NCBI GenBank assembly: GCA_030062745.1
Contig: CP099846.1
Location: forward strand, 8,801,432-8,865,431
From: Capitulum mitella
Taxonomy: Eukaryota > Arthropoda > Thecostraca > Pollicipedomorpha > Pollicipedidae
Reading direction: 5' to 3'
Length of the DNA: 64,000 nt
Of this stretch, positions 13,598 to 55,094 are shown piece by piece. Numbering within the stretch: position 1 is the stretch's first letter; the number at the start of each line of letters is the position of its first letter. The notes beneath the pieces are model-generated. The model did no database searches and was not told the origin of the DNA. It saw only the letters and a program-made list of their open reading frames with translations. The position numbers and the translations under genes are program-made.

Positions 13598-13707
13598 TTG
13601 TCGGTAAAGCCTTCAAACTCCTCGTGCTGTTCGTTGATGGAGGCCTCCAGGTCGAGATAGCTGCCCAGCTCCCCGTCCTTGTACAGCTGCATAGTGGTGT
13701 CGGACAG
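13598..13707 (-). CDS. Fhod: FHOD-family formin, second conserved exon (GBD)
   Basis: A 110-bp internal exon on the minus strand encodes 36 codons plus two bases, beginning LSDTTMQLYKDG and ending EEFEGFTD. It matches the FHOD segment in which vertebrate proteins read APHK-LDDCTLQL...AYLDLEA...EQR-ELEGF; YLDLEA, EQ and EFEGF/ELEGF are unmistakable. The acceptor is GACAG/CTG at 13708 and the donor is CAA/GTAAGTT at 13597, both canonical. The exon enters in phase 0, exactly as the upstream exon 21306-21476 leaves, and exits in phase 2. In FHOD1 this region is the GTPase-binding domain, which has a ubiquitin-like fold and precedes FH3. FHOD formins assemble and bundle actin in stress fibres and sarcomeres. 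The next exon is not found and probably lies left of the window. Confidence 0.93.
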
Positions 13708-14723
13708 CTGTCGGCACGGAAAACCTCATCAGCCGTAACATCGACATCAGTGACGGTGGCATGGAACACACGCCGCAGACCATACTGCAGATGAAGCGCT
13801 GCAAAACTACTTTGCCTGGCTCTGCCCCTGCCAGTTTTAAAAACGTCCCTATCGGCACATCGCCGACTGCCATTAATAACGTGGCCAATACATCATGGTT
13901 ACCGGTGGAAAAGGTGGCACGGCAGCCACCACAGTGACCGAGCCCGATTTTCTTGAAAATAATGCTACTGTAGCCTTCTCACCGGAAAATACCATTAGTG
14001 TCTGGTCGTCACACTAACCTCTTTTTCTGGGTCATCAACCAATCTCTCAGGCCTTAGCATGTGATACTGCAAGACATCAGTAACGTAGCCAGTTTTCTCG
14101 TAAGGGTCAAGTTAGGTCAGGTCAGGCTACTTCAGGCCAAGGCTAAAGCAAGGCATACGAGGTATTGCTTTCACCATTTTGTTTCAAACACGAGGAAAGT
14201 GGCCCTATCAAACAACACATTCGTAGTATCTGAAAATGAGTACATTACTTTGAATGCTATACGTGTACACAAATCATGTGTGATGCAGGCCAGTTTTTGG
14301 AAACCTCTTACCATCAGGGTCAATTGACCCCTCTGACCCCTTTGGTTGCGCTACTGCATGCCAAGCATAATCATCTGGAGGTTTGTATAAAGGACACAGT
14401 CCAACAAGTTTGCGCAGCAACAGATGTTAGCCACCGAACGGCCGAAAAGTTGAACTCGTTCTACTTTCCGGTTCGGCTCCGAAAAGCTGAGAGAGCCGAG
14501 TGGCTCATCCGTCGTTCGGCGTTGGTTGACAGGCATTTTTGCATCGACTCTGCCTTAAATTCTGTCGAACGGCCATTCGTTGAGACGCCGAATATTTCCA
14601 GTGCACGGCCGACTGATGACTGTCACTCTCCACTGAACAAAAGTTCAGTTCAGTGTGGCGTGAGATCGACTTCTGTGGATGTGATCTAGAAGGATCCACG
14701 TAGCTAAACCAAACTATTCGTGC

Positions 14724-14826
14724 GTTATTATTATTGCTATTATTATCATTTCTGCTATTTGGCATTATTATTATTATTATTATTATTACTATTATCATTA
14801 TTATCACTACTATCGTTATCATTATT
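14724..14826. repeat. Imperfect (ATT)n microsatellite
   Basis: Runs of ATT interrupted by ATC, GCT and ACT. It encodes spurious poly-Leu and poly-Ile frames. Confidence 0.95.
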
Positions 14827-16724
14827 TGCCAGCGCAGCCTCAAAATTTCCTTGCACTGTCCGTGCTTCACTGGGGGCGTTTCTGTGCCGGAATTCAGGGT
14901 ACTGTGGCCGAGTCTTCTTCATATGAAGTCCAGCGGGTGGGAAAACTCCTCTGAGACGGTGAAACGAGAACTCAACACTTTCGTGGACCGCGGGGACCTC
15001 ACTGCACCTCTCCAGGCGGCCTTGTTTCAGAGCTGATGGACACCCCCCGCGTCACAGTCATGCGCCCAGTAGGGCGGAGCAGCAGCCGATCCACTCGAAG
15101 GCCGCGGGCGCGCCGCTTCCGACTCGCCGCGTGCGAAACGCCCCGCCGTCAAACAGAGGCCGCCGCCGACCGCGCCGCGCTCCGAGCTTTCATTTACCCA
15201 CCGTTGCGGGATGCGGCGCGGAGGCCACTTCAAAGCGGCGTCACCGCAAACGGCTGGCGGCGCGGCGCGCGTGCCCGTGTGGCCCATATAGCGCGCCGGG
15301 CCGGCTGGTCGGCGGCCGGACAGCGGGCCGCGCGCCTGACGTCGGGCCGCGTGGGAGCCGGGAGGTGCCGCCGGCCCGCCAGCGGCCGCCGGGAATTCTG
15401 GCTCGAGCCGCGGGGAGTGCCGGTGGGGGCGGCCTGACGTCACCGCGGAGTGGAGCCCTGACGCGTCCACCGCGCGACAGGGCGGGCCGCTCCTCGGGGA
15501 CGGGTCGGCGGCGAGCGGCCGGCGCCGCCCGCCGGCAGCAGCTGGCTCGGCGCTGCCGCCCGCCCGCCGGCCGCCCAGCGGAAACCAGACCGGTCTGTTT
15601 TCCTAGTGGTCGGCGGCTCGGCCGGGCGGCCGCTGATCGGCGGCCGGCCCGGCCGGCGATGACAGGTCGGAACGTGCGCACGTGCCGCCGCGCCGGCCAG
15701 CTGAAATCAGAGCCCGGCGGATCCGTGACAACTGGGCTGCTTTGAACTCGTCCTGGAGAGGGACTGCACGGTGGTTCGTGAGTCTCGAAAGGTGCTCAGC
15801 TGCACTTGAGCCTCAACACCGTCGCGTGATGCTCCTGGGGGCCGATGTCGGCATGCGCCCGGATCAGAGACGGCCTTGATCAGAGGGTCAAGATCGGACT
15901 CGATCACTATCGCGTCACCTATGCACGCGCACTGCGCAAACAAAAACCGGACCCCCATTACCGGACGCGCGGCCGGCCATTTCTGGGTGAAGGGCGCCGC
16001 CCGGTCAGGGGACGCGCGCCGCGCCGCGACCGCCGCCGTTTCGTATGCGGCGCACGGCGGCGCGCCGGACGGCTTTTTGCCGAGGTGGTGGCGACAAATG
16101 GGCCGGCCCGCCCAGGCAGACCCGACCGGAGGCGCCCCAGACCGGCCGGGAGCAGAGGCGACGGCGGGGTGCCGCAGCCGCCGAGCCGAGATCGCGGCCG
16201 AGGGCCGGTGAAGTGACCGACCGCTGCGCCATTCAGGCCGGACTGCGAGCCAATCTAAATACAGGGCATCGACTGCCAACGGAAGCCTGGACACTGCGCT
16301 CCAGAAGCGACCGGGCAGCTAGGTGCCCCGGGACGCGATTCCAGTCAGCGTTCATATACGCTTCGGTTGTTGCACTTGCCTAGCTGGAGCACTCGCCAGA
16401 CCAGAGCAGCGTTCATATGACGCCTGAGCGACGAGTGAATCATCAAAACGTGTCCGCGCTGGGGAAGTGCAACAACTGTTTTGAATCGTCTGACTTCACA
16501 CATAACATCCGCCCTCTACCACCATCATGCCTCAACGCGTGCAAAAATACGAAAACCTGGTAAAGCTTCCTCAGGCTGTGGGTGGCCGAAGCAACAACTA
16601 ATGCCGGTGTTTTCCGCCTGTCCGCACTTGTCACGGTCCAGCCCTCCGACAGCGCACGGCTGCCAAGAGGACCGGCCAGGTGGCGGCCAGGCGCCGGCTC
16701 GTCCAGCGGTGCCGGCGCCGGGAC

Positions 16725-16990
16725 TGACACGCTGCCACCTGACGAGCGGGGCCTCAAGCGCATATCAGGTCACCAGCCGCCAGCCGGGCCGGACCGGAGA
16801 GGAAAGCCGAGCCGCAGCCAGCTGACGAGCGGGGCCTCAGGCGCATATCAGGTCACCAGCCGCCACCGGGCCGGACCGGAGAGGACAGCCGAGCTGCAGC
16901 CAGCTGACGAGCGGGGCCTCCGGCGCACATCAGGTCACCAGCCGCCAGCCGGGCCGGACCGGAGAGGACAGCCGAGCCGCAGCAGCGTCC
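16725..16990. repeat. ~82-bp tandem repeat, three copies
   Basis: GACGAGCGGGGCCTC recurs at 16741, 16824 and 16905 (periods 83 and 81). Each copy continues through CATATCAGGTCACCAGCCGCC and GGGCCGGACCGGAGAGGA. Small indels separate the copies. Confidence 0.9.
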
Positions 16991-18404: not shown

Positions 18405-18655
18405 GCGAGTTCGGGGCCCTGCCGCCGGCCCGTGACTCTGACCGGAGTTCAGCAGTTCCGGGGCCGGCCCTCAGACGCGGAGGGCGGGTCCAGGCTCTGC
18501 CGCCGGCCCGTGACTCTGACCGGAGCTCGGCAGTTCCGGGGCCGGCCCTCAGACGCGGAGGGCGGGTCCAGGCTCTGCCGCCGGCCCGTGACTCTGGCCG
18601 GAGTTCAACAGTTCCGGGGCCGGCCCTCAGCAGCGGAGGGCGAGTCCAGGGCGCG
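18405..18655. repeat. 78-bp tandem repeat, ~3.3 copies
   Basis: GCCGCCGGCCCGTGACTCTG recurs at 18421, 18499 and 18577, an exact 78-bp period. Units contain GGGGCCGGCCCTCAGACGCG. Very high identity between copies. Confidence 0.93.
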
Positions 18656-21305: not shown

Positions 21306-21476
21306 CTTCTGTGGCGCCATGAGCTGGCGGTGCACGCTGGGCAGCTGGTTGATGAGCGGCAGCCGCGTGTTGAACACGTACGACGGCGGCCGCGTCGGCT
21401 CCAGGCCGACGCTGTACCCGAACGGGTCCACATCGTTCAGGTACTGGATCCGGCACGTCACGTAGCTGATCTTCAT
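21306..21476 (-). CDS. Fhod: FHOD-family formin, N-terminal start exon
   Basis: Encodes 57 complete codons beginning MKISYVTCRIQYLNDVDPF and ending HRQLMAPQK, followed by a canonical donor (AAG/GTGAGC). It aligns from its first residues with the N terminus of FHOD proteins, which open M...CRVQFLDDTDPF and contain EP.RPP, a leucine/glutamine stretch, VHR.L and AP.K at the same spacing. The ATG at 21476 sits where vertebrate FHOD starts, supporting use as the initiator of a short isoform. In frame upstream, codons stay open for 14 triplets to a TGA and include possible acceptors TGCCAG/GCT (exon start 21485) and GGTCAG/AAG (21497), both phase 0, so the exon could also be internal in a longer transcript. 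Family role: Rho-pathway-regulated actin assembly and bundling. The FH1-FH2 part is outside the window. Confidence 0.94.
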
Positions 21477-21960
21477 GGCCGGAGCCTGGCAGCGCTTCTG
21501 ACCACGACTGATCTCCGCTGGGCCGCTGCGGCGTCAGACAGCCAGTCCGCAGTCGGCCAGTGTGGCCGCTCAGTCAGTCGGTCCACAGTCACGGCGATCA
21601 GTCGCCGCTGGTCTCCGCGCCGCGGCGGCCGTCCTGTCCAGGTGGCGGCGGCGGGCCGACTGTCTGCCGCGCTGTCGGCTCCGCCCTCCACACCGGCCAG
21701 CTGGCAACTGGCAGCAACCGACGCCGCACGGCACTCCAGGCCGGACGGACATGCGCACTGCAGCCGGCCAGGTGTGCCGCCGGCGGCGGCGGCGGCGGCC
21801 GGCGGGTATCAGTCCGCCCCTAACGACGCTCGCCGGACTCCCCGCGGCGGCGGCAGGACCAGGGTCACCCCAGCGGCGCCGCCGGGTGGCGCTTTATGAC
21901 AGAGGCAGGCGGCCAGAGCCGACAAACCCGGTTTCGCGAGCTGGGTGGAAGATGAGTCAG
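21477..21960 (-). promoter_or_regulatory. CpG-rich candidate promoter of short Fhod isoform
   Basis: A block of dense CpG immediately 5' of the FHOD start codon, with no TATA box that I can see. Its position suggests a CpG-type promoter and 5' UTR for a transcript starting with MKISYVT. The two candidate splice acceptors just before the ATG have poor pyrimidine tracts, which favours a transcription start here at least part of the time. Inference only. Confidence 0.4.
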
Positions 21961-25634: not shown

Positions 25635-25785
25635 CAGCGAGGACGCCGGGTAGCCGTTGTCGGCCGCACCCAGGGCTTTGGAACGGCCGGCGGGGAGCGG
25701 CCGGGGAGGCCGCCCTTTCTCGGAGCGACCGTTGACTGGGTGACGCGGAGAACCGACCGCCAGCGTCGGCGACGGTGGCGAAAGC
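25635..25785 (-). CDS. Probable exon 5 of long Fhod transcript
   Basis: A 151-bp candidate exon between an acceptor CTGGACAG (25787-25786) and a donor CTG/GTGGGT at 25634. Read in the phase left by the exon at 30034-30223 (two bases AG carried over) it gives a completed codon and 50 open codons beginning LSPPSPTLAVGSPRHPVNGR and ending GYPASSL, and leaves in phase 0, the phase needed to enter the FHOD start exon. The composition (Ser/Pro/Arg/Gly) resembles the preceding exons. A second open frame across the same bases is also free of stops, so coding status rests on splice signals and phase. No domain is recognised. Confidence is moderate; the pyrimidine tract is weak. Confidence 0.55.
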
Positions 25786-30033: not shown

Positions 30034-30223
30034 CTGACCCCTAGCACACACGAGCAGTCTGCACTGTATGACCAACCCCCGCCGCTGACTGACCGGTTGG
30101 TTCGTTCGTGAATGGTGACCGCTGACGGGTCGACCTCCACGACATCTGCCGCCTGCGAGTCGGAATCGGTGCTGCCATCTGCCGAGTCTGAGCTCCCGGT
30201 GTCAGCCGACGACGACCTCTTGT
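30034..30223 (-). CDS. Probable exon 4 of long Fhod transcript
   Basis: A 190-bp exon with strong signals: a branch-like CTGAT followed by a pyrimidine-rich acceptor (TCTCCGCTCCTCAG at 30224) and a strong donor CAG/GTAAAA at 30033. Entered with one base carried over from the 31597-35054 exon (phase 1) it reads (N)KRSSSADTGSSDSADGS, an acidic/Ser run, then VVEVDPSAVTIHERTNR and a Gly/Ser/Cys end, leaving in phase 2. Read through, the frame would hit TAA only three bases past the donor. The phase match on both sides is the main support. No known domain; the acidic Ser-rich part looks disordered. Confidence 0.7.
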
Positions 30224-31596
30224 CTGAGGAGCGGAGATCAGGTCTCAAAGCCGGAAACATAGCTTGCACCCGGCGAGTGGGCAGCGGTCTTAATGATCAA
30301 AGTGGTTCGCCTTTATTGGTGACACAGCTTAATTCTGTAGTACAAAATGACAAGGCTTGTCTTGATTATCATCACACTATATTATTCTCCGAGGTGTCTG
30401 GTTTGCACTCTCCTCAAATTTCATTCCTGAAAATCAGTTACCCCACAGATGGTGAGAAACCTATCTGGGCGTGTTCAGCGAAGCTACATGCCACAGCGAC
30501 ACAGGGGTGAGATGTAGAGCAGCCTACGTCTGTCACTCTGAACGACCACACGTCAGTCGGCTCAGCGACACCCACCTGGGCGTCCGCGACCGGCGGCAGC
30601 GCTGACTGCGCGCCTGTGCGCCGCGGCCTCCGGAGAGGTCACACCCAACACCTCGTCAATGTTGGTCATCTGACCTAGGGGACAACGCCACACGGCGGCC
30701 GTCAGAGGACCAGCTGAGGAGAGACGTCACAGGGCCCTGGTGACGTCATACAGCGGGAGCGTCTGGCGCCCGGGCGTTTTCACCCAGGTCAGGGTTACGC
30801 GTGCTCACCACCGCGCCGGCGTGGTGCAGGCGTGTCCGGGTGATACGAGTCGGCCGACACGCGAGGGGTATCGCCTTCCGGCCACGAAATCAACAACGAA
30901 ACCCGAACGGGCGCGTCCGGTTACACGATGCGAAAGCGTTACCGAGACAAAAAAGAGCGGAAGTTACGGACCGACTGCTGGGCGGTCGACACAAGCGAAG
31001 GTGGAAGGACTATGTGCACAGGGGAAACTGGAAGAGAGGGGCTGCCTTTCCAGGTACCTTTATGATTCACATCGGCAAGAAATAGCACATGGGAAATAAA
31101 GCCCGGATCCCTCCACAGTGAACGTTTCGGTGTGACAAAGACTTTGATAAAAAACAACCAATTAGATCGCTGACAATTTGATCAGAAGCAAATGTGATAC
31201 TGGAATGAAAGAATGACCGTTGTATAGTCACGATCTAGGTACCTCCTTTAACCCATGCGCTGATCCCTTTGATCAACTGTAATTGTTTGAATATTAAATG
31301 CGCAATTATCAACAACAAACCGTGTCAATCCGCAGTGTTATCAACCAAATTATTAGACTCTCAGTACACAAATGGATTAAACTTCCGAAAATTACGGCTG
31401 ATCCAAGTCGATAAATGTCCGTTGCCCATTGGCACTACTTACTACTCGACTCTCTACAGGAATCACAGACCCGTCCCACTAATCACCACGTCATTCAGCA
31501 AGTACGGCAAACAGCACCCGATCAACGTTACCAAGCACTCCTGGCCTGCAGCAGGGTAAGCGCTAGTGCACAGACGGCATACAAACTCGGCCTTAC
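30224..31596 (-). other. Presumed Fhod intron (1.4 kb)
   Basis: Between the donor ATCA/GTAAGG at 31596 and the acceptor at 30224. It has a CpG-rich patch at 30540-30860 and otherwise ordinary sequence. No second gene seen. Confidence 0.65.
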
Positions 31597-31679
31597 TGAT
31601 GAACAGCGAGAGGTTTCGTTTGGCGGCCTGCCGCTCCTGGTCGCTGGGGACGGCGGCGCCGGCCAGGCCCGGCTCCTCG

Positions 31680-31721
<42 letters not shown>

Positions 31722-34700
31722 TCCGCCCGCTCTACACCGGCTGCAGTTCGCTCAAACTCCTCGAAGTCGGCGGCCGGCGGCTGGCCGGCCAGCAGCGTGT
31801 CGATGTCCTGGCAGGCGCCGATGAAGCTGACGTGCGGCGGCGAGCCACGGTCGGCCGTGCCGTAGCCCGAGTCCCGCTGGCCCGGCCTGAACACGAAGTC
31901 AGAGGCGAGCACGGCGGCGCCGGCCGCCGCTCCCGCCGGCGCCGCCGACGAGCCCGGCTCGTCGTCGCTGGCGTCGGCGCGCAGCATCGACAGCGAGAAG
32001 CGCAGTCGGTCGGCGGAGCAGGCAGGCGCTGGCCGGCTCCTCGTCGCTGCTCTCCTCCGAGCCGACCTCCTGGTGAACAGACGAGCCCGACTCGGAGCTC
32101 GAGCTCTCCGTCTCCGTGGACGAGCTGACCGACTCGGGCTGCGCGGCGGCGGCGGGGGCGGCGGCGGCCGCCGCCGGCCGGGCCGCCGCCTCGTCAGCCG
32201 GCTCGGCGCTGCTCTCCTCGTCGTCGTCGTAGAGGCCGAGCATCTCGCGCGCCGAACGGAACCGGACCGGGCTGGCCGGCCGCGGCGGCGGCGGCGGCGA
32301 GGCCGGCTGGTCGGCGGCGTCCTCCCACCAGGCGCGCGGCTCCGACAGGTTCCGCCGCACCGGGAACGCCTGGAAGCGCGGGTCCGGCTCCGGCTCGGCC
32401 GGCGGGGTCGCGCTGTGCTGCGGCGCCGCCTCGTTGAAGTTGTTCTCGGCCACCTCCCACCACACATTGGCGCAGGAGTCGCACGGCCGCGGCACGTACG
32501 CCGGGTTCGTCTGCACGGCGCCCGAGCCGAGATCGAGCGCGCCCTCGCCGCTTCCGTCCTCGCGCAGGCTCGCCGTCGGCACCGCCTCGCTCCCCTGGTC
32601 TCCGTTTTCCGGGGTGGCATTTTCCTTGGCGTCGTCACCGCTCGCGGCCCACCACGGCTGCGGCTCGGAGTCGAACCTGCGGATCGGGTAGAGCCGGGCG
32701 ACGTCGCGGTCCGGCGGCTCCGGGTCGAAGGTCCAGAACGCGCCGTCCTCGGCCTGCGACGAACGGCCCGAACTGAGGCCGTCCCGCGGGCTGTGGCGCG
32801 GCGACCGGCCCTGCGCCGAGTCCCGCGCCGGCCTGACGTCACCGCTCGACCTCCTGACGTCACCGGCCGACTTCTTCTTGCGCAGGCGGCGGCCGATGGA
32901 GGCGGAGGAGGCGCGGGCGCCGTCCGACTCGCTGGACGAGCTGCTGGACGAGGTGTCGCGCGCCACGCTGCGGCGGGAGGCGTCCCGCGAGAGGGCGCGC
33001 CGGGAGCCGGCGCTCTTCACCGAGAGCAGCGAGCCGGGCCGTTCCGGCCGCCGGGCCGAGTCGCCGCCGGCCGCCGACGGTCGGGACGCTGGCCGCTGCG
33101 AAGCTCGAGACGAGGCGCTGCCGGAGGCGCTGTCGCTGCCGGAGGTGGCGGCCCGGCCGGCCGCGGCTCCCGGCTTGGAATGTGTTCTGCGGAGCGAGCC
33201 GGGCCGCGGCGGCGCCGGCGAGCGCCGCTGGTCGGCGCCGCTGCTGGTCGAGGTGCGCGCGCTGCTGCTGCCGCTCGAGTCGCGCCGCAGGCCGGCGCCG
33301 ACCGCCGCGCCGCCAGACGGCGGGCGCTGCGCCGCCGGCCGGCCGACACTGGACGCGCTCGGCCCGCGGCTCAGCCGGCCCCCACTGGCGTCTCGCGGCA
33401 CCTGGCCCGTGCTGGGGCCGCGGCTCAGCCGGCCCGCGCTGGCGCCTCGTGGCACTTGGCCCGTGCTAAGCCGGCCCCCGCTCGCGTCTCTCGACAGCCG
33501 ATCCCGGCTTCCGTCTTGCGGCACCTGGCCGGCGCTGGGGCCGCGCGAGAGCGCCGGCCGCGGCGCGCGCCCGCCCGCCGAGTTCTCGCCGTCGCTGGGG
33601 CCGCTACTGCGGCGGCCGCTGCCCGAGGAGCTCCTGCGGGCTCCGGCCGGTCCGCCCGCCCGCCTGCCGGCCGCCTCCGAGTCGTCAGCGGCCATGTTCG
33701 CCGCCGACTTCCGGAAGTCCTTGTTGCCGGGCAGAGGCGGCAGCGGAGAGCGCAGCGGCGTCGGCGAGGACGGGGCGGCGACGCGCGCGGCGGAGATGGG
33801 TGAAGAGGGCGAACTGGAGGGCAGGCCGCTCGCCGTGGTCGGCGACGGCCTGGGCGGCTGCGGCGGCTGGTACGGCTTCGGCGCCGTCACCAGCAGGTGG
33901 TCCATGCTCTCCAGTGGCGACTTCGCAACCCCGTTCGGCGACACCCTCGACTGGCTCGTGGAGACGTATACCTTAGGTTTGGTGTCGTCGGTCGTCGGCC
34001 GCGCGGAGCTTGCGCTGGCGGCCTCGCGTCTCGCCCGGTCCTTCTCCAGGTCCGCCGCCGTCTCCGGCGACATGGCGTAAACGCCAGCCGGCTTCTCGCG
34101 GACCAGGTACTTCTTGTGCGACTCGAAGTCGAAGTCGGCCGGCTGCGGCAGCGCCGCGTTCGTCTTGGCAGCCACCTTGGCGTAGCCGGGAGAGTAGCCA
34201 CTGGCGAGGAACCGGAGCGGCCGCTGCTGCTGATCGGCGGCCGGCACGGCCTTGTCGCCCTCCTCCGACTCGGACGAGCCGGACTCCTCCTCCTCCTCTG
34301 ACGACGACGAGGACGAGGACGGCTTGCGAGCGGGGCTGGCGGCGGCCTGCCGGGCCGGCGGCGCCGGCGGCGAAAGGGCGGCCGTCCTGGGTGCCGTCCT
34401 GGACAGGGGCGACCTGAGCGGCGCCGCCGGCGACCGCAGCTGAGACGCCGCCGCCGCCGATCGAGCCAGCAGCGACGTCGGCCGCGCCGGTCTCGCCGTC
34501 TCCGACGCCGGCGGCGGCGCTTGCGCGGCGGGTCTGGACGACTCGGTCGACGGCACGGACGGCAGCTTGCCGGTCGGCTTCTTCTGGTACGGCTCGTGCT
34601 CCGGCTCCTTGCCGATGGCCTTGAGGTAGGCCATGCGCGCCGACGAGGCCGGAGGCGCGTTCCTGGCCACGCCCAGCCGACTCCATCGGTCGCCGTTCTC

Positions 34701-35054
34701 CGACAGGCCGTCGTCCGTCTTCTTTGCTGGCGCGGTGGAGGCGGCGCCGCGGCCCGGGTAGCCCGGCTGCTTCGCCTCCTTCTTGGCGGCGTCGCCGGCG
34801 TCGGCGGCGCGCCGGCTGAGGTAGCTCGACCTGGACTCCTCCTTGCGCGCGTCCAGCCGGGAGCCGAGCCGGCTCTGGAGGCCGCCGGAGCCGGAGCCGG
34901 GCGCGGCGTCTCGCTCGGAGCCGACGCGGGAGCCGGACGGCAGCCGGGAGGGGTAGCGGTCGCCGACGGCGGGGTCCGACTCGGCCGGGCGGCGGCCCTC
35001 CGAGCCGGCCGGCCGGCCGAGCTCGGACGAGGAGCCGCCGTACCGGTCACGGGA
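31597..35054 (-). CDS. Large disordered-protein exon, frameshifted; probable exon 3 of long Fhod transcript
   Basis: A ~3.46-kb exon, very GC-rich at third positions. The acceptor GTCGCAG/TCC (35055; alternative GGCAG/GTC at 35062) follows a branch-like CTGAT near 35090; the donor ATCA/GTAAGG is at 31596. Translation from SRDRYGGSSSELG gives ~1,150 residues rich in Ser, Ala, Pro and Arg. It includes a KAIGKEPEHEPYQKK stretch, a Ser7-Glu5 tract (~residue 245), GQVP...GRLSRGPS repeats (~500-570), three tryptophan pairs (32649-32654, 32457-32462, 32325-32330), a Ser/Glu run and a poly-Ala tract (31682-31718). At 32019-32026 a tandem CAGG duplication moves the frame by +1; the sequence beyond, from SADRLRFSLSML to KRNLSLFIS, is sensible only in the new frame. 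I recognise no folded domain. Membership of the Fhod gene is inferred from strand and splice phase. Confidence 0.82.
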
Positions 35055-38000
35055 CTGCGACCTGCCGGGATCCGGAAACGGACCGAATCAGCGGCGCCTG
35101 CACGGCAGCCAGCGATCGCAACACAGGCTTCATTCACTGCTGTCGTATAAATACCACTGACCTTGGCAGTCTTTCACTCCCGACGAACGAAAGCAAATAT
35201 TGTAGTGGTCAGCCGTCAGTGAAAGTGACTGACTCAGCAATCGGCTTGAACAACACAGCAGTAAGACAGGTATTCGCTTGAGGTAAGCGTAACGAATCAT
35301 TTCAAAGTTCGGACACTACAGGCTTTAACGTTCCAATCATCCATGCGCAGCATTTGTGCCTACTGAAGCACCACGTGCTGGATCATAATGACGTCACCAG
35401 CTGATTACCTGTCCCTCGCTGACGTCGTGGTCCGGGAGGGGGCTGGTGACGTCACGGTCGGGTCATACCGGGACCGGAAGCTGGAGCCGAACGTCTGGAA
35501 GACAAACAGACCGCGTACGTCAGTTAGCGCAGGACCTGGCGCCGCTCCAGCACAGACGACTGCCACCGATAATCGCCTCTCAAAACACGCTTAACTGGCC
35601 CGGCCCGGATCAGCGAGAGAAATGGTCCACAATTGGTCAAGATGGTTGGAAAGGTAGAGCGACTGCATGAAAGCCACCCAAATTATCAAATGGCACAATA
35701 AAAATGAATGTGGGCCTAAAGAGAACGCATAGATTGGCCCTCTCGCACTTTGGACCGCCTCCTTGGAGTGGTTCCGTGACAGGCGTTGGCTTAAACTGTT
35801 CAGGATCTTGTGGCGTCTCGTCAATTCGGAACAGACCAACAATGGCGTTTACAGCGAGAGGGACCCGGAAACGTCAGAAACAAAGGTCAAAGACGTCAGA
35901 GAGCTGGAAAATTCCCCGTCGCCTCCACGACCCACGTCGTCCTCAAGACATGGACTTGGCGACGACAGAAACCCAGTGGTCAGAGTCCACACAGTCCTCG
36001 ACATGAAGAGAGGCAGCAGAAATCCGATTCCAGGGCTGCCCGGGCCGGAAGTGTCCAGCTCGAGAGAAGCCTCCACAGAGCTCTGCGCGGCGGCGCGCCC
36101 CGACCCGGCCGGCGCCGCGCGGCCGGGCTGGGGACGTGGTCACGACACGGAACACCCCGCGGCCGGCCGCCGCCGACACCGGAGCCGGCGCCGGCCGCCC
36201 GCAAAACCGGGTATTTTCGGCGCGCAGCGTCGCGCCGGTCGCGCCGCCGGCCGCATAGTTGGCACGGCCGCGGCCGGCACGCAGCGGCGGCGACCGCGCG
36301 TGAGGCGCCGCGCCGCGCCGCGCCGCGCCACGCCACGCCGCGCCGCGGCCGCCGCCGCCGGCTCGCGCGCGAGAGAGCCTCCGCCCGAGACCACCCGCAC
36401 TCGTGCGACCCGCGTCACAGACCGGCGCGGAGCCGAGGCGTGCGAACCCCCGGCGCGCCCAGCTCCGGCCCACCACAGCCAGGCACTGTCGGTCAGCCTC
36501 ATGGCATTGCACGTTTGATCAGCGTTGGCTCCTCCGGCCGGCGCAGCCTGCCGCCGCCGCCGCCCCGTTCCGAGAAGGCGTCAGAAGAGTTTCCGGCTGG
36601 CGGCGGGCTGAGCGTTCACGGCCTACATAACCCCGGCGATGGTCGGACGGCCGACCGCGGCGACAGCACGGCTACTGGGCGGCGCCAGGTGAGGAGCGGT
36701 CCGATGCGCCCAGGCGGAGACGGAGCACGACCACCCTCACCAGGGCTGGACAGAGCCGACAGAGCCTCGCGCCGAGCCGAGCAGAGACGAGTGGCAGAGG
36801 TGACGGCTCGCCGGGGAGAGGAGTGGTCCTGTGGCGCAGCGGCAGACCGTCTGATGGTCTGTCTGACGTCTCGTTCAGAACGGGTGCAGAACAGTGGGCC
36901 CACTAGCACTTGAATCTCGATCAGAGCAGTCCAACGAGTGTTGGATAGGCTATTCATCTGCGGCATGGCGCAGTAGCCTGACGGCGTTTGCCAAAGAAAG
37001 ATGAAAAGGTGATGATCGCCTGCCAAGTGGATTAGAAGACGGGCCATGTACAGAAAACGTCACGTGACTCCGCTCCTTGTCCTAATCAATAGCGTAGTCC
37101 GATGCCATGATAACAGTCTGTCCCGCAGGATCTGGTCCGGGGCCCTGATGACAGCCTGTCCACAGGGCGTGGTCCAGTATCCTATTCTGATGACAGCCTG
37201 TCCACAGGGCCTGGTCCAGTATCCTGATGACAGCCTGTCCACAGGGCGTGGTCCACTATCCTGGTGACAGCCTGTCCACAGGGCGTGACCCAGTATCCCG
37301 ATGACAGCCTGTCCGCAGGGCGTGTTCCAGTGTCCTGATGACAATCTGTCTCCAGGGCGTGGCCCAGTGTCCCGATGACAGCTCATCTGAGTGCCGTACA
37401 CTCCGCATCACTGTGGTGTTAACACGTGGGTCGCGGCCGCGTGACCAATCAGCTCTGAATGGCCCCCGTCGTGAGCAGGGGGGGGGGGGGGGAATCTGGT
37501 GGGACTGACGTGTCATCGTTGGCAGCAGAGGGCGGATGTGTGGTGGTTGGCCGTCACGCGCAGGCGCGATCAGTGGCGGAGGCAGGCGGCGGTGGCGCTG
37601 TGGTGACAGACCTCTAGTGAATCAGCACCAAAAGTGTACAGACGACGCGTCAAAGGACGCATCGCAATGACTTGCTGGTGTACCAGGAGCTAAGGTATAA
37701 GTCGCATGTCATGAGCCTCAGAGTCTTAACGTGGTTTGGCAAGCTGCGGTTTACAGTAGGTACACCACGATGGATTAGGCCTAAACAAACAATTCACGTC
37801 CGAACCGTGCAGGTCATGAATCATAATGACTGAAGATCAGGGTGACGCCTTGATGTGTATCCAAACATGCTGCCTCTCGATACTGTAAATATAACGACAA
37901 AACCCCTTATGGAGCTTGCCCATGCACGAATTTCACCATCTGGAAGAAACAGGAAAGAGTGGTGACATCCGAACAGGGGAAGCTGCCCAATTTGCACCAC

Positions 38001-38231
38001 CTTTTCGAAAAAGGGTCGCCGTGACTAAGATGTAGCAGAATTGTCTTACTTCTTTATTATAAATATGCTCTGGTCTTCTGACCACCGGAATATCTGGAGT
38101 TATTTCAGTCCATGCCTACTATTTTTTATTTGATTTCTAGCAAAATGCTGCAAAACGTACAATTAGGGCAGCCGTGTCATATTTGCGCCGTATGATGTAT
38201 CTGATCGCACCACCATACAAATGATACAGAG
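35055..38231 (-). other. Presumed intron, GC patch
   Basis: A TATAAATA word on the plus strand (35146-35153) is isolated and probably chance. A CpG-dense patch spans 36060-36850 and creates long frames on both strands (up to 367 codons) with no conserved motif. The tRNA-box-like words TGGCGCAGCGGCAGACCG (36833-36850) and TGGCGCAGTAGCCTGACGGC (36966-36985) may be SINE debris. The 37-bp minisatellite is listed next; 37640-38230 shows nothing. Confidence 0.45.
37125..37385. repeat. 37-bp minisatellite, ~7 copies
   Basis: Tandem unit built on CTGATGACAGCCTGTCCACA followed by GGGCGTGGTCCAGTATC. Copies differ mostly at CGTGGTCCA versus CCTGGTCCA and by the insertion TATTCTG in one copy. Confidence 0.92.
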
Positions 38232-38655
38232 CAGGGATGTCGATTTGTATTCTTTGGGGGGGGGGGCACTGGCCCACTCAATGTTGATTTGAGCCCCTCC
38301 AATGTTGGTTTGGGCCCTACCAATATTTTCTGCCAGTTTTAAAGGGAATTGGGCAAAAATAGCGAAAGAAACGGCCGCAATAGATAAAAGACAGACAGAA
38401 AGTACTAAACAAGAAAGTAAGAAAGTACAGATAGGTATATATATACACCTATCATGTTATATATACATATATATGTATATGTATATATATGTATATATAT
38501 ATTTATAAATTTTATATATATATATATATACCAAAAATTCCATTGGTCAAAATAAAGTGGGCTAAATCCATTGAGAACCCCACATTACGGGGGAGGTTAG
38601 GTTGTCGGGCCCATGGCTCGGCCCACCCAATCATTTATAAGAACTGACGCCCCTG
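38232..38655 (+). mobile_element. hAT-like MITE, family C, complete copy
   Basis: A 424-bp element starting CAGGGATGTCGATTTGTA and ending (as reverse complement) CAGGGGCGTCAGTTCTTATA, flanked by near-perfect 8-bp duplications ATACAGAG (38224-38231) and ATACGGAG (38656-38663). The 8-bp target duplication and CAGGG termini indicate the hAT superfamily. There is no coding capacity. Internal landmarks shared with the other copies are CGGCCGCAATAGATAAAAG and GTTGTCGGGCCCATGGCTCG. An AT-rich microsatellite occupies the centre. Confidence 0.88.
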
Positions 38656-38740
38656 ATACGGAGTTCCAGGTGCTTCTGCGGCGGCAAAGGGGCAATGAAT
38701 CACTGTCTGGTATATTACGAACAGTCCCACTTACTACTCT

Positions 38741-38743
<3 letters not shown>

Positions 38744-38799
<56 letters not shown>
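38744..38799. repeat. (TA)n microsatellite
   Basis: About 28 uninterrupted TA dinucleotides. It probably lies within another degraded hAT-like element whose right end (GAAGCCAGGATTTTCC as reverse complement) is near 39065-39100. Confidence 0.95.
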
Positions 38800-38800
<1 letters not shown>

Positions 38801-39857
38801 TATACTTCAATACTTCCCAGCAGGAGGGAAGAGATGTTTGAAGCCCAACAGGATGCTGGGCAGACCCCATGGAGGTGGCTCCACAGACGAATCCGATGGG
38901 CTTGGGGTCCATATCTCTCATGTGATGCGAAAATGTTTCACTCTTAAGCCCGAAAACAAAATAGTCCTGCATTTCCTAAACGAAATAAGGTTGCCGAAAT
39001 CATAAGGTTTTTGGGGTTTGAGAATGGTGCACTCCTTCCGCCAGGGTCAGGGAGGAAAGACCAGGGTCCCCAGGAAAATCCTGGCTTCGTGCCTGGCCAG
39101 GGTCTGTTCTAACATGTCAGTTAGGGAGCAGGTCCTGCAGTGGCAGCTATTTCCCCAAAGGGAAATGGCACGGAGAAGTCACCTGGCTCCGAAGGGTACC
39201 GTGCGTGTAGCCAGTGGCGAACCGCCCTCTCTAAATGAATTGACCAAAAACTGAAAAAAAAACTTTCTAAAAAAAATAATAAAAAATTTCTCACAAGATT
39301 GATAGAGGGTCCTCGTCCCAGGGACGTCGTCAAGTTTTCCGGCCTGGGGGTTGCCTACGAGACTTGGGGGGCCGTTGATTACATGATGAATGGGAAAACA
39401 ATTGTGTTTTATTAGTTTCCGCGGCCCGCAAAGTCGGCGGGGAGCTGAACGGACTTCGTGTGGGAAGAGGGCTGAGGACTGCAGCCCTCCCAAGGATCTG
39501 GCAACGCTTCCGCCTCACTCCTAAGGTGCCCCTCTCCAGTTGAAACACACAGCCCCCCCCCCCATAATTCTCTCTTTAAATGAGTCTCGGACACATTCGG
39601 AACACTGGAACAACCATCAGCACAATTACTTAGTTATTTAGTTACTTAGTCCTGTTCCGACTGTGCTACTAGCACAATAAGGCCCCGCGAATGGTGGCGC
39701 AAAAAGGACAATGTCTCCAGCATAACAAAACCAGCCGCGAGTAAACAAATAAATAAATAAATAAACGCGCGCGCATATCAAGCCTGTTTTGGCTAAATAG
39801 GAAGCGTAATTCCACAACGGAGGCAAGGATAAGGTCGATCTTGCTTCATGGCATTGA

Positions 39858-42080
39858 CAGGGGCAGATCGAGAATTTTGCCAAACGGGGCCGAATGGTCA
39901 GCGAGGGGCCCCCTCCTGCCCTTCCCCCCTCCCCGCAGTTTTTGTTCTTCAGACATGAAAAACGTTTATTTGCTCGGGTTCAGAGGAAATATTTGATGTC
40001 ATTTTGCGGGACTTTCAACGCAGAGTTACGGAAAAAAATTCAAGCGCGTCAGCTTATTTAAAAAAAAATGCGTTTCTTCCCCTACAAGGTGGTCGAAATA
40101 TGGCAATCACGGTGGGATCTTAGGCGGCTTTGTCCCTCCCTCTACTTGAAATGTGGTGTGTGCATCTGTTCCAGGAGCTCCCAGCTCCCTTGTAGTTTCT
40201 GGAGACATTTTTGCTATGGTAGCTTAGGTTAGGTTCCCTCTTGCACTTAGAGGGCACTTTTGGTGGTCTCGGGCCGTCTGCCATGTCAGGGCCCTGTAGT
40301 GGTCTCAGGCTCCTTTACAGTTTCATACGTCCTTCAAGACATTTCAGGCGCTCCTTGGGCGGTTTCAGAGGCGTCTCGAGCAGTTTCATGGACCCATCTG
40401 GCAGTTTCAGGGACACTGAAACCATCATGGGTTCCCTACTGTCATATCTGGGGAATTCTTGTCATCTAAGGACTCTCTCGGGCAGTAACAAGAGCCGCTC
40501 GATAAGTCTCTCTGCCGTGACAGAGACGCCTCTGGCAATGCTCTGGGTCCTTTGGCCGTTTCAGGAGCTGTATGGACGTCTCAAGGTTTAATAGTTTCAG
40601 GGCCCCTCTGGTCGTCTCAGGGGCCCCTACTGCTAGAGACTTTTAGTTAGCAATCTCAAATGGCAAGTCTTATATGGCAAGGCCCCTCCCTAGCAGTCTC
40701 AGTGGAGCCCCTGTGCCCCTAGGTACGCGTCTTATCGTCTCTGCGGAGCATTTTTGCTGTCTCAGGGGCCCTCTGGCAGTTACAAAAGACCTTTCGTTTG
40801 GCGATGTCAGGGCCCCTGTGCAGTGTCATGGGCCCTCTGATCGTCTCCGGCGGTCTCCATGACTGTATCAAGGGTCTTCCTCTATTACATGGGGTATGCC
40901 TGGCAGCCTTAAGGCCCGTCTAGCCGTATCAGGGACCTTTGCTGGAGCTTCAGGGACCTCATTGGCAGCATCAGGGGACCTTTTCCGTTCCAGGAACGCC
41001 TAACACACTCGGCGGCCCTCTGGCCGTCCAGCCATCCAGGACCCGCATACCGCCTCTTATCATCTTTTTGTCGCGGGGACTCACCGACCTTTTAGGCGGT
41101 CTCAGGGCCTATCTGCCGTGAAGAGGCCCATTTTGCCGTCTCAAGATCCACCTGACCTTCCCCAAGTCCCATCACCATAGGCGCGGGAGCCATGGGGCCA
41201 AGGGGGCTTCAGCCCCGTAGCTTTTTGGAATTTAACATTGATCCTGCAGGCGTTGACTGGAAAGAATTGAGCCAAAATGCTTCCCCCGCCTCCCAAATGA
41301 AGAGGAGTTCCCGTGCCCCGGCCCATGACTGCATCAAGAACCTCTCAGGTTTTCAAAAGGCCAATGTAGCCAATTTAGGGCCCCTCTCGAAGCTGAGGTC
41401 ACTGATGAATCCCTGTTCAGGGGGCACCTCTGGCTGGTCAGGGTCTCCTTATGCCGTGCTAGCCACCTTCGTAAGCTTTTGCCGTCTCGGGGGCCTCTGC
41501 CCTGGAGACGGCAAGAACTTTTAACGGTCTCATGCCGTTTTGGGGCCCTTCTTGCGGTTCCAAGGACCTTTGGAGAGTTTCATGGGCTCTTTTATTCATA
41601 TCAGGGGCCATTTTGCCATCTTAGGGTCTCATCAAGCCCCCCCCCCGGCTCTATGACTACATCAGGAACCTTCAGCTTTCCACGCAGGTACGTGAAGCTA
41701 ATTCGGGGCTCCCATGGTATTCCAAGGGCCTCCATGCCGTCCTACGGACTCAGTCCTCATCTTGGTCGTCTCAGGGACACTGTGACCCTTCTGGTGGCCT
41801 CAGTGGTAATCTGCCGTGTTGAAGCTCTGTTGTGGTTTCAGGAGCCTTTTAGGGGCTTCGGGGCCCTTCTGTGCGTCTGGGGGGTCATCTAGCCCTCTCT
41901 GAGGCCCCTGACTGCAACAACCCGTCACGTTCCCACCAGAAACCTCGTGAAACTCATACGGAGCCTCTTTGGGCCCATTTTGAGTCTGAGAAAGACTCCT
42001 TCATGGCACCTCTCATGAATCCCCTTCTCAGGCCTCGGGGCCATTGCCCTCATCGCCCCCATCCCCTGGATCCGTTCTTG
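39858..42080 (+). mobile_element. hAT-like non-autonomous element with internal 21-bp repeats
   Basis: A 2,223-bp element flanked by perfect 8-bp target duplications GGCATTGA (39850-39857 and 42081-42088). The left end is CAGGGGCAGATCGAGAATTT; the right end as reverse complement is CAAGAACGGATCCAGGGGAT, sharing the CGGATCCAGG core of hAT ends. After a ~300-bp unique head, nearly the whole interior is a degenerate tandem array of roughly 21-bp phrases of the type TTTCAGGGACCCATCTGGCAG. No transposase frame is present; the open frames are products of the repeat. A second copy lies at 58021-59915. Confidence 0.85.
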
Positions 42081-42089
42081 GGCATTGAT

Positions 42090-42916
42090 GGCATAGTTAT
42101 GCATGGGTAACATAAGCTATAAAACTATTTGAAACTTGCACTGCAACTTCACGGGCCCACCATACGTCTGTATCGCTGCCAGAAAGCAAGAGGAAAGGAT
42201 CAAATCTGCAACCATGTCGTCTCTGTCAGAAAATATCCTTTATTTAGCAACCAGTTGTCTCAGTTGGAAGACAATGGGGGGTGGTGCAGTTAAGCAGGGT
42301 GTCACTCATTGCGTAGTTCCCCCTACTAGCTCGATTTCTATTTGAAAACCAGATAAGCATGACAGCTGGTTTACGGCAGCCATGTCTTAATTATACAGAT
42401 CACGTTTCGGCTTCTGTCGTGTGGCACCCTTGATGCCCCGTGGGACATTGTCTTTCCACCAGGGCGTTTGGGTTTATTTCCGGACCCGTGGAGCTGCAGA
42501 AAGTCGTTCCTTCTGCGTTGCGGTGGCCAGTTAGGTTCATTAGTTCAAGAACTATCGTTTATTAAGGGTTGTCCTGCATGTTCCGGGTCCTAACATTTAA
42601 TAGTGGGAACGAGCTGCATTCGTGTATTATTGAGTTGCGGGTGTGTGTAACTGTGTGTTCCGTGTAATATGCATACAATGACAGTCAGACATTGAGACAA
42701 ATGTCGGTGAGTCGTACCGCGATGCAGATACCGAAGGCGACCCGAGATGACCGAAAAAACCTTTCTTATGACGTTGTACTTTACTTCATCAAGTCTTATA
42801 TACAAAACTTCTCTTGCATAAAAACGATTGCTCAGTTTTCCAATAATGCAACAGAGCTGTTCGGGACATGTTGGAGGCACGCCGTCTGAGTGGGTGCTCA
42901 TGTTCTGCTCATGTTC

Positions 42917-42959
<43 letters not shown>

Positions 42960-43138
42960 AAAAATATCTCAGAGGCGTTTCAGACAGGGTAAGTGGGACG
43001 CCTGTGTGGAGGGATTACGTTAACATCAAACAAACGGCGGCGAGCCTCAGTCAGCTGGCGTCTGCCTGCGATACACACGGTCGGGCCGGCGGCCGCTGCA
43101 GGTGCGGGCGGCGGGCAGGGGGCCCGGCGGGGACGTAC
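42090..43138 (-). other. Presumed intron with (CT)n
   Basis: No gene recognised. Perfect (CT)n at 42920-42958. A CpG-rich patch begins near 43040 and leads into the exon at 43139. Confidence 0.5.
42920..42958. repeat. (CT)n microsatellite
   Basis: About 19 perfect CT units. Confidence 0.97.
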
Positions 43139-43225
43139 CGATCCCAGAGCGGAGCGGCCGCCGCCAGCCGAGCCGCCGTAGCTGCGGGACGACGACGGCG
43201 TGTACGTCGACGGAGAGGACGTCGC
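43139..43225 (-). CDS. Probable exon 2 of long Fhod transcript
   Basis: An 87-bp exon, 29 codons, phase 0 at both ends: ATSSPSTYTPSSSRSYGG through GRSALGS. The acceptor is preceded by TCTCGGTTGCAG (ending 43226) and the donor is TCG/GTACGT at 43138. The Ser/Tyr/Gly-rich peptide closely resembles the start of the next exon in composition (SYGGSA here, RYGGSSS there), and the phase-0 ends fit both the ATG exon at 55071 and the phase-0 acceptor at 35055. No domain; likely a disordered head region. The other two frames are also open over so short a span, so the support is splice sites, phase and composition. Confidence 0.65.
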
Positions 43226-46234: not shown

Positions 46235-46284
<50 letters not shown>

Positions 46285-51103: not shown

Positions 51104-52313
51104 CCCTATTCCCGGCAGGGGGGATGAATTCGTCCCTCTAGAGTTTTTTGCTTGTCAATTCAAGGCTTTTTAACGCAGCTTCACAAAACGTCGTGACGTT
51201 CCCTAGCTATTCTTTCTACGTGCCGTGACAAAATTTCAGAATTCTTTTTTGCTCAGGGGCGGAGCCAGGCAACGTTTTTGGGAGGCACCTCAGGCCATTT
51301 TTGGCCATGTTGAGGGTAAAAGGAAAATGTCTGCCAAAAACAGAGTTTTTAAGATAGAACTTAAAACTTTACGTGGATGTATAGCTAAATGGTTGAGCAA
51401 TGTGCAGATATAATTGTGTTTATCTGAGGTCACTTTACGAGGTCAGGTCAAGGTCAAAAGTCAAAATTTTTGTTTTATTGCAATCATTTCGACGCTGTTT
51501 TTTTTTCAAATGCCAAACCCGGAATATGTATGACGTAGAAAGATGCTCTCTACTTGTGTATCAAGTTTCAGCTTGATATCAGGTCGGGTCACGGAGCTAT
51601 GACCTACAATGTCAGCGCGCGTACCCGATATCGCAATAGGCATAAAATGAAATTTTGAAATAGAGTGAATCCAAATGAATGAAAACGTTTACAGGTAATA
51701 TTAAATGCACACGAGATCATTCCAAATGACTCCAAGGTCACTGGAGGTCATTTAAGGCCAAAGATCACAAGTTCACCTGAAGAACGTGTGACCATGACAC
51801 TTCGCCCTTTTTCATGTCCCTGGCACCGCCTATGCTAACATTATACAAACACTGTAATGAGATTTGTACTTCTTTAGCATAGCATGACTACCAGAAGCCA
51901 AAAAAAGGTGTTTTTGCCTTTCTTGTTTATTCAGTTGTTGGAAGACTAGTCCTCCTGTTTTTGAAACCCTGTGAACACCCATGAATTTTCCCAAAATTTC
52001 AGATGTGTGTGCCAGTGGTAAAAGTCCCATCCATAATCTCTCGATTCATGCCAGTTTCATCGAAATCGGTCCATAAACAACGGAGTTATAAGAAGTCCAA
52101 ACATACCCCTGATTTTGACATTTCTGATCTCCTGTATTCACACTTTTCAAAATTTTGAAAACTTCTTTTTATAAAAATGTAGTTCACGTCATGGCAAATC
52201 GATTGCCGTTTGTTGCGATGAAATCGGATGTGTAGTTCTCGAGATATCAGGGGGGCCGAATCCGCTCCCCCTGCAGGGAATCGACCATACCGTCTAGCCC
52301 TCCGGGAATAGGG
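51104..52313 (+). mobile_element. piggyBac-like MITE with perfect TIRs and TTAA
   Basis: A 1,210-bp element with perfect 12-bp terminal inverted repeats CCCTATTCCCGG (51104-51115 and the complement at 52302-52313) flanked on both sides by TTAA (51100-51103, 52314-52317). TTAA target sites with CCC/GGG ends are diagnostic of the piggyBac superfamily. No transposase frame is present. A hAT-like end, CAGGGGCGGAGCCAGGCAAC, occurs inside at 51254, with a mirrored relative ending at 51834, so an older hAT element may be nested in its ancestry. A diverged relative is at 11020-12150. Confidence 0.85.
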
Positions 52314-52317
52314 TTAA

Positions 52318-52616
52318 AGGGGAAAGGGTAATATTAACGAAAAGAACGGCTGCATTAGATAAGAGATGGACAGAAAGTCAAGAATTAAGTCTAAAGCGAT
52401 ATTCCATCTTTCTATCCCTTATCTACAGATATATCTATATGCATGGGGATAAAGGCAATTTCTTATTTTATAAATAGTAGCAAAAAAACTCGCAAATTTC
52501 TGTTGGTAAAAAGACAGTGAGCTAAATCCGTTGAGAAACCCACACCTGGCGAGGGTTAGGTTGTCGGGCCCTCGGCTCGGCCCATCCCCAATCATTTACA
52601 GAAATCGACGCCTCTG
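52318..52616 (+). mobile_element. hAT-like MITE family C, 3' part
   Basis: Collinear with the 3' two-thirds of 38232-38655: ACGGCTGCATTAGATAAGAG, GGGTTAGGTTGTCGGGCCCT and the end AATCATTTACAGAAATCGAC. It begins exactly at the TTAA that bounds the piggyBac-like MITE, at the place where the intact copy has TTTTAAAGGG, which suggests that MITE inserted into this copy. The expected 5' part is not recognisable left of 51100. Confidence 0.7.
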
Positions 52617-52974
52617 GCCGATGCTGCCAGTCACCGAGTGGTCTTGATCAATACCGAAGACTGGGCGGAAACTTAACTTTACTCTAATCTCTTTTGCTGA
52701 CGTGGCAGCGATGAATAAGACAGAGATTGTATGCTTCCCCATAGTTATATCTTCTCGAGCTAACCATTCCGGAGCACCGTGTCGTGTGGGTGCGCTTGAC
52801 GCTTTGCACCTTTGATTACACAGCAGCATGACTGCCAATCAGAGCGCTCTCTGCCGCTGACGTCATACCCCTCCCCTGCCTCTGAAGCGCCAGGCGCCAT
52901 CCGCCCGATGCTCGGTGCCTACAGCAGTTTTAGTCTTTTAGCTTGTTTACGTAATTGTGAATCTGTCCGATTTT

Positions 52975-53369
52975 CACGGGCATCGATTTCTGTACATGAT
53001 TGGGGGGGGGGGGCGACCCGAGGGCCCGACAATCGTACTTCCCCCAAATGCGGATTTTTGAGCGGGTTTAGCCCACTTCATATTGACCAACGGAAATGTA
53101 TACTTTTTTTGCTATTTATCACATTGAAAACTGCATATATCTCCGTGTATATAAATCTAAAGATAGAAGATCAAAAGATAGCTAGATTACTTTATGGTTT
53201 GTTTTGTACTCCTGCATAGCTGCTATCTATTACGGCCGTTCCTTTTGTTATTATTGCCCATTTTCCTTAAAAACTGTTGGAAAATATTGGAGATCCAAAC
53301 CAAAAGTGGGGGAAACAAATCGACATGGGGACCCAGGCCTTCACAAAAAAATACAAATCGACACCCCTG
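52975..53369 (-). mobile_element. hAT-like MITE family C, inverted copy
   Basis: A 395-bp copy in reverse orientation. On the minus strand it starts CAGGGGTGTCGATTTGTATT; on the plus strand its other end reads CACGGGCATCGATTTCTGTA, so the ends are mutual inverted repeats. The flanking octamers CCGATTTT (52967-52974) and CAGATTTT (53370-53377) agree at seven of eight bases. Together with 52318-52616 it forms an inverted pair around a 358-bp spacer. Confidence 0.82.
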
Positions 53370-55070
53370 CAGATTTTTATGTAATGTTCCGGTCGCATTC
53401 GAATGCACCGATCCGAATGTTAGAAACCAAAGCCTTAACGAACTCTCAGCTCTACTTCTGACGTCTCTCGTTGATGATGCAATATTACGTTCTGCTACCA
53501 CTTATTGGTCCACGTCCGCTAGCGTCGTCACTCAGCAACTGACAATGGGCACGGATGAAAACGAGTGGAACTTTAAGGAAATCTCTCTGAAATTCGTAAA
53601 CATAGAGCTTTTAAGACATATATAATGCGAATGAGAAATCGGTTTCTGAAACTAGAAGCAACAATTTGGTAGCTCAAAACACTTATTAAACGTAGAACAT
53701 TCCCTTTCAATCATACGATAAACGTGCAGATTTCGGTCAAGTTGATCCACCGCTGTGGAACCGGAAATGCGCGCCGATTACACTATGAATTTTAACTATG
53801 AGACGTTTGTGTTTCGTCGCTAAAGGCCCACCAGTCGGTTTGGTGAGAGTATCTGCTGCTTCCGCGGTACGTCAATGACCCTGCGTCATACTTTCAAGAT
53901 TGGTTATCTGTGATTATTGCCATCAGGATTATTGCTGTCAAGAATGCTTATCGCTTATTCTATTGCAGGTTTTCCGCACCACTCAGAAACTCCAGTAAAT
54001 GATTAGCGTCTGCTGTAATTAGAACGGGCGTTTCTTCAAACCCACTCAAAGTTCGGGGTGATTTACCGAGTGCTGAACAAGAGCTAGAGCTAGAGAGATC
54101 AAAAGGAACAATTTCAGACGAGTGGGCCGGACCACTTCAACCGCATCTCAGTTCTTTAAACCAGCATAACGTTACTTCACTTAAAGGGAATGTTCCAAAT
54201 TACCACGTGCTTCGAACTGAGAAAGCCAAGGTGTAGTCACTAGTCTAAGAAGCCAGTTTGTGACGTCCTATGTCGCATAACTCTATACGTTCGGAGGTTC
54301 AAAGCGATTTACCGAGGTTTTCTTATGTGTCATATTCGGCCGTGTTTTATCTACAGCTGTTGCATGACATAACAAGCAGTCACAGACCAATCAGCGCTTG
54401 CTTTTGTTAGCCTGCGCAGGCCCGTAATTCGTCATTTTGGCAGACGACTCTAGAAGATCGTTTGAATTAATTCTATAGCTTCCAATCAGAAAAACTGATC
54501 ACTGAAAGCATTATCAGCGACATTTTTGAGACCAACAAAATATACTTATGAAAAGTTAATCGACGTGGAATATTCCCCTTCATACCTTCAAAACCACTTT
54601 TGTTCAAAGTGGTGTAAAACATAACTCACCCGACCAGGTAAAATGCTAAACTTAATACCCTTGAAATGATGGACGTCACAACAGCCAGCAGTTACACACA
54701 AGGGCGGATCCAGACTTTGTGCTCAGGGGCGGTCAAATCTCCAACCGTGGAATATCATCTAACCTGCCCTAAAGGTCCATTTCTCCCGAAATTTCGGCTT
54801 TTTCGTTTTGCCGTTTTCCAAAATCGACATGCACTTAAAAGGTTTCGAAGACAAAAAAAGCACTTTCCATCCGAAAAACGGGCCCTCGCCCTCGCCCTCA
54901 CCCCTCCCCTCCCCTCCAGGAAAAAGGGGTCACGCCCCGATATCCCCGCCCCGCGAGTGGTTACAGTTACATATTACGACAATACTATAACACATTACGA
55001 CAACCCCCCTACCGCAACCGTCCCCCCCCCCCGCCAACACCGCGCCGCGGCAGGACGACGCGCCACTCAC

Positions 55071-55094
55071 GTATCGGCTCCTGTAAGACGACAT
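55071..55094 (-). CDS. Candidate first coding exon of long Fhod transcript
   Basis: ATG followed by seven codons (MSSYRSRY) and a perfect donor GTGAGT at 55070, leaving in phase 0. The Ser/Tyr/Arg peptide reads smoothly into the Ser/Tyr-rich exon at 43139, also phase 0. It lies at the edge of a CpG-dense block, as expected of a 5' exon. So short a frame is not significant alone; support is the donor, phase, composition and promoter-like setting. The Kozak context is ordinary. The 5' UTR extent is unknown. Confidence 0.5.

Follow-up and report, generated by a model that had tools for sequence, protein, structure and literature searches.

The closest described counterpart of the gene considered here is Drosophila Fhos, an FHOD formin that, in the available text of one report (PMC5061545), is expressed from two promoters, with one form carrying a 63-residue head and a separate promoter serving the long class. 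In the long isoforms (RH-RJ), which flight muscle requires, 1198 residues without a recognizable domain come from one large 5' coding exon (PMC5061545). A construct carrying 410 residues of the Fhos head reaches Z-discs (PMC5061545; the same point is made in PMC11081514 and PMC10797183), and the long head is stated, by citation of a review, to be conserved among Neoptera (PMC5061545). None of the papers searched names both FHOD and barnacles. Here we analyze a 64,000-nucleotide stretch of the genome of the barnacle Capitulum mitella (the window, C8:8801432-8865431), for which a first-pass annotation, appealing to the varied N termini of Fhos isoforms, had proposed a long FHOD isoform built from five additional minus-strand exons. 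We find an FHOD gene with a conserved coding block upstream of it on the same strand, and our analysis suggests that this block (31597-43225) is probably the coding body of a long FHOD N-terminal extension, the barnacle counterpart of the fly head.

A conserved coding block upstream of an FHOD formin gene

The gene is an FHOD formin, with GBD, FHOD-type FH3 and FH2 in that order on the minus strand. Inside the window it is represented by the GBD part alone, in the two exons listed below. Codon use, here and in later lists, comes from a test trained on 819 codons, some of which belong to the same FHOD gene; they were taken from eight FH2/FH3 formin stretches beyond the window, all read in the FH2 sense. 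On this test the conserved and GBD exons range from +0.32 to +0.77 bits per codon.

21306-21485, minus strand: FHOD GBD exon 1; PF18382 (Formin_GBD_N) E 2.3e-16, +0.77 bits per codon
13598-13707, minus strand: FHOD GBD exon 2; PF18382 E 4.4e-09, +0.37 bits per codon

The two exons join in frame, and their joined product matches FHOD1 in the PDB (3dad, E 8.2e-17; the FHOD1 chains matched are 3dad and 6xf1), which bears out the earlier statement that the FHOD start exon encodes the GBD. The FHOD-type FH3 family (PF24959, FH3_FHOD1-3; E 2.4e-29 and 2.8e-14) matches two minus-strand stretches within the 10 kb to the left of the window, and three of the 26 FH2 matches in the whole assembly (477,042,490 bases in 16 contigs), all on the minus strand and over the cut-off, lie downstream of the GBD exons at C8:8781398 to 8768663, beyond the FH3 stretches; a fourth FH2 match downstream of the GBD exons falls under the cut-off (E 0.0026). 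Because these FH3 and FH2 exons are found there on the minus strand, the FHOD gene continues past the left edge of the window. GBD exon 1 carries an ATG at 21476, likely the start of a short isoform, and the same exon is a possible splice target of a long one.

About 10 kb upstream of GBD exon 1, on the same strand, lies a block of three exons that is coding, conserved and encodes about 1,200 mostly disordered residues; the block, its conservation, and its order and strand relative to FHOD are shown directly. Its homologue is P0001, a 992-residue protein of Pollicipes pollicipes annotated as 'treacle protein-like', which was the sole homologue among the candidates scored.

43139-43225, minus strand: candidate extension exon of 29 codons, phase 0 to 0, TATPSSYTSPSARSYGGS...ALGT; P0001 match, borders TTGCAG / GTACGT, +0.67 bits per codon
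35409-35494, minus strand: candidate extension exon of 86 nucleotides, phase 0 in and 2 out, TFGSSFRSRYDPTVTSPAPSRTTTSARD; P0001 match, borders TTCCAG / GTAATC, +0.32 bits per codon
31597-35061, minus strand: large candidate extension exon of about 1,154 codons; open frame, P0001 match, codon bias

Allowing for one frame slip, the block shares with P0001 541 identical residues out of 873 aligned, from the 43-kb exon through the last codon of the large exon. The exon at 43139-43225 aligns with P0001 residues 50-86 (17 of 30 identical, E 4.9e-09); tblastn at default settings does not list it, and a more sensitive run recovers it with the match stopping exactly at the donor end, 43139, and the next-best place at E 0.07. 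The exon at 35409-35494 (64% over 28 residues, E 0.003 by tblastn) reads 'FGSSFRSRYDP...' where P0001 has 'YGSSFRSRYDP...', and its phase-2 end, completed by one nucleotide from the acceptor at 35061, gives RSQSRDR, matching P0001. This exon had been overlooked in the first-pass list, which also started the large exon at 35054; the acceptor is 35061 (splice score +2.8 vs -2.2), and the phases across all three exons are consistent once 35409-35494 is included. In the large exon, a 1062-residue open frame at 31899-35087 matches P0001 at E 6.8e-149.

Near 32.0 kb (31985-32040) the reading frame of the large exon is broken by a shift of one nucleotide, at a place where an intron would not fit and where the flanking stretches are conserved in P0001. 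Such a break could be taken as real, and the block as an extension copy that has decayed or been mis-assembled, an explanation to which we give almost no credence, because conservation and codon bias persist on either side (tblastn of P0001 covers both parts of the exon, which score +0.65 bits per codon before the slip and +0.69 after it). An assembly or allelic indel is therefore the likeliest source of the frame change.

Disorder is expected from the composition of the extension, in which Ser accounts for 17.0%, Ala for 16.6%, Pro for 10.9% and Arg for 10.7%. Pfam searches at E<=0.1 found no family, treacle or other, in P0001 or in either open frame of the large exon, so the GBD exon is preceded, on its own strand, by a large coding exon without known domains; a PDB sequence search with P0001 likewise gave no match at E<=0.1, and an IMG/VR scan with P0001 returned 43 pattern matches and no relatives. 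Against this disordered sequence several conserved islands stand out, among them FESHKKYLVREKP, a SEPxxWW motif and the following:

34044-34136, minus strand: conserved island DFDFESHKKYLVREKPAGVYAMSPETAADLE, from the P0001 alignment
32649-32690, minus strand: motif YPIRRFDSEPQPWW, related by alignment to the island at 32325-32375
32325-32375, minus strand: conserved island FQAFPVRRNLSEPRAWW, identical in P0001

Within 32325-32690 the related motifs YPIRRFDSEPQPWW and FPVRRNLSEPRAWW lie 108 codons apart, and P0001 has FPVRRNLSEPRAWW identical and YPIRRFDSEPQPWW cut short. The homology of P0001 runs from the 43139-43225 exon through the whole remainder of the large exon. P0001 differs in its own first 52 or so residues, in two end residues that are absent here and in lacking about 180 Ser/Arg-rich residues of the window, which form degenerate repeats (SRGPSAGQVPQDGSRDRLSRDASGGRLSTGQVPRGAS...) at 33048-33584. 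Protein searches with the 1062-residue frame (words from its first 500 residues; best 7,980 candidates scored) and with residues 775-1020 (E<=10; best 7,986 candidates scored) returned P0001 alone, negatives that are weak because only candidates sharing most words were scored.

A possible splice from the block to the FHOD start exon

We favor a long FHOD isoform because the barnacle locus repeats the layout of Drosophila Fhos with a large exon of nearly equal size, and because a six-frame search of the DNA between the block and the GBD exon gave no Pfam family over its cut-off. The end of the large exon is also informative: with the slip allowed for, no in-frame stop precedes the donor, and the sequence shared with P0001 ends there, and the exon therefore fits an internal one. 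The same evidence bears on the main competing explanation, that the block is a separate gene, 'treacle protein-like' in Pollicipes, which ends soon after the large exon and has FHOD as a neighbor by chance or linkage. P0001 ends at the position of the large exon's donor, an AATAAA follows some 1.3 kb further on (30317), and the two exons that the first-pass annotation placed between the block and FHOD lack a coding signal. A separate gene is harder to reconcile with a shared sequence that ends at a GT donor and with the same layout in Drosophila Fhos, as far as the available text of PMC5061545 describes it; the treacle name comes without a domain, and we rejected it as a clue to function. The single AATAAA carries little weight against joining, since the interval holds 11 AATAAA or ATTAAA sites in 10 kb. 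On balance we regard a separate gene as unlikely, though a serious contender.

The first-pass annotation had proposed three further exons, two of them in the interval between the large exon and GBD exon 1:

30034-30223, minus strand: proposed exon 4, unsupported as coding; -0.20 bits per codon, good splice scores (+2.7 / +3.9)
25635-25785, minus strand: proposed exon 5, unsupported as coding; -0.01 bits per codon
55071-55094, minus strand: proposed start exon of 8 codons, neither supported nor excluded; +0.24 bits per codon

At 30034-30223 the required frame is the best of the three despite its negative score (-0.07 bits per codon for a shorter form); at 25635-25785 it hardly differs from another frame (+0.07 for a shorter form), and the acceptor is weak (-0.3) and the donor good (+3.3). 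GC at third positions is 0.71 and 0.76 in these two exons, respectively, below the 0.83-0.95 range of the conserved exons and those of the GBD. By tblastn of the window, P0001 has no match at 30034-30223 and near 25.6 kb matches solely on the opposite strand, at E 2.3 and with stops; P0001 could not support either exon in any case, because it ends at the large exon's donor. As for the start exon, ATG...GTRAGT mini-exons (at most 150 nucleotides, phase 0) occur once in 20.8 kb, where 200 sequences resampled by a Markov model average 3.6; this places the exon at chance level, and its product differs from the head of about 52 residues in P0001.

The remaining argument for the proposed chain was its phases, given as 0, 0, 1, 2, 0 and entering the FHOD start exon in phase 0 through TGCCAG/GCT. 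These phases hold only if the slip is allowed for, and the straight reading meets three stop codons because of that slip in the large exon. The entry site is open and scores -1.4, but of the eight AG sites that lie within 124 bases upstream of the FHOD ATG, seven are open in frame and together they admit phases 0, 1 and 2, so a phase match there proves little; we rejected the phase chain as evidence of joining. The chain does have GT-AG borders on four exons, and an ATG with a GT donor on the first. Against it stand the missing conserved exon at 35409-35494, the wrong acceptor for the large exon, two of five exons without coding signal, a start exon at chance level and phases that are uninformative at the FHOD end. 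We therefore judge the exact five-exon chain, with its start at 55071 and both interval exons, very improbable; its exon at 43139-43225 and, with a corrected border, its large exon are borne out by P0001 and codon bias, as is the presence of a large, conserved and probably disordered coding block on the FHOD strand.

Several observations weigh against a long FHOD isoform. An exon finder run over 21.6-31.6 kb yielded nothing above the noise of other introns: its best scores there are 9.6 (25635-25735, a shortened form of proposed exon 5, and 30576-30674) vs 11.0 in the 35.5-43.1 kb intron, on a scale where 43139-43225 reaches about 25 and 35409-35494 about 15 (both summed from component scores). 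Both the donor of the large exon (+0.6) and the acceptors of GBD exon 1 are weak; the best of these acceptors (entry 21525, phase 2) scores +0.25, where those of the extension exons score +2.4 to +3.3. P0001 is annotated as a stand-alone protein that ends two residues past the large exon's last shared residue, which touches the case that the first-pass annotation itself named as refuting (homologues of the large exon in unrelated single genes), though the protein's name has no domain to back it. A search with GBD exon 1 among proteins of about 1,375-4,375 residues gave three word-sharing candidates, no matches and no fused form. In the available text of the Drosophila report, moreover, the 410-residue Fhos construct rescues only partly, and long Fhos without the short form is found at both Z-disc and M-line, which is not the behavior of a simple Z-disc tag (PMC5061545).

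Parts of this evidence have limits of their own. The splice weights of the exon finder were set by hand from the consensus and not fitted to this genome, and in its run one of the eight formin training stretches was read antisense; exons with weak borders could escape it, because its thresholds would drop the 31597 donor and both GBD acceptors. The acceptor of the confirmed GBD exon 2 is likewise weak (-0.18). The second of the two best-scoring intervals, 30576-30674, is a minus-strand open interval with AG-GT borders, phase 1 to 1, QMTNIDEVLGVTSPEAAAHRRAVSAAAGRGRP, whose score of 9.6 is within noise. Elsewhere in the window, at 4587-5351, a plus-strand open frame of 254 codons consists of degenerate repeat and resembles a tandem repeat more than a gene.

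Proposed long and short FHOD forms, and their known relatives

If the block joins FHOD, a distal promoter somewhere upstream of 43.2 kb would produce a long isoform with about 1,200 mostly disordered residues ahead of a GBD-FH3-FH1-FH2 formin, and an internal start at the ATG at 21476 would produce the canonical short form; of the possible readings, this one has the best precedent. If Drosophila Fhos is a guide, short conserved motifs in the extension may anchor the formin at muscle Z-discs, and the short form would act elsewhere. We infer the splice from the block into FHOD, the two promoters, the localization and the function from the layout of the locus and its likeness to the fly gene.

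Should the join prove real, the long FHOD isoform that organizes thin filaments in fly flight muscle would not be an invention of winged insects, and a comparison of the barnacle and insect extensions would single out candidate Z-disc-targeting motifs. In at least one barnacle, a single gene would then have been annotated as two, which is what the 'treacle protein-like' entry points to. A broader proposal, for which we see the chances as evenly balanced, is that the Z-disc-targeting long FHOD N terminus is older than Neoptera and shared by crustaceans, and that a two-promoter switch between long and short FHOD, ancestral to Pancrustacea, formed part of the basic muscle toolkit of arthropods. 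Under such shared ancestry, the candidate docking motifs would be YLKAIGxEPExEPYQKK, DFDFESHKKYLVREKP and two 'P-I/V-RR..SEP..WW' motifs.

Compared with known systems, the barnacle gene resembles FHOD1 and FHOD3 in the presence and order of its exons for GBD, FHOD-type FH3 and FH2, here on the minus strand. The crystallized FHOD1 constructs (chains 3dad and 6xf1) have no more than about a dozen residues ahead of the GBD, unlike the putative extended barnacle form, and we know of no full-length vertebrate FHOD with such an N-terminal extension. The difference from Drosophila Fhos, within the available text of PMC5061545, is that transcripts, promoters and a Z-disc role are reported in the fly only, and the barnacle lies outside Neoptera. 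The likeness to Fhos is one of layout and size: in both, a big domainless 5' exon (1198 residues in the fly, about 1,154 codons here) lies upstream of an FHOD formin, and a short form, likely in the barnacle, starts downstream of that exon.

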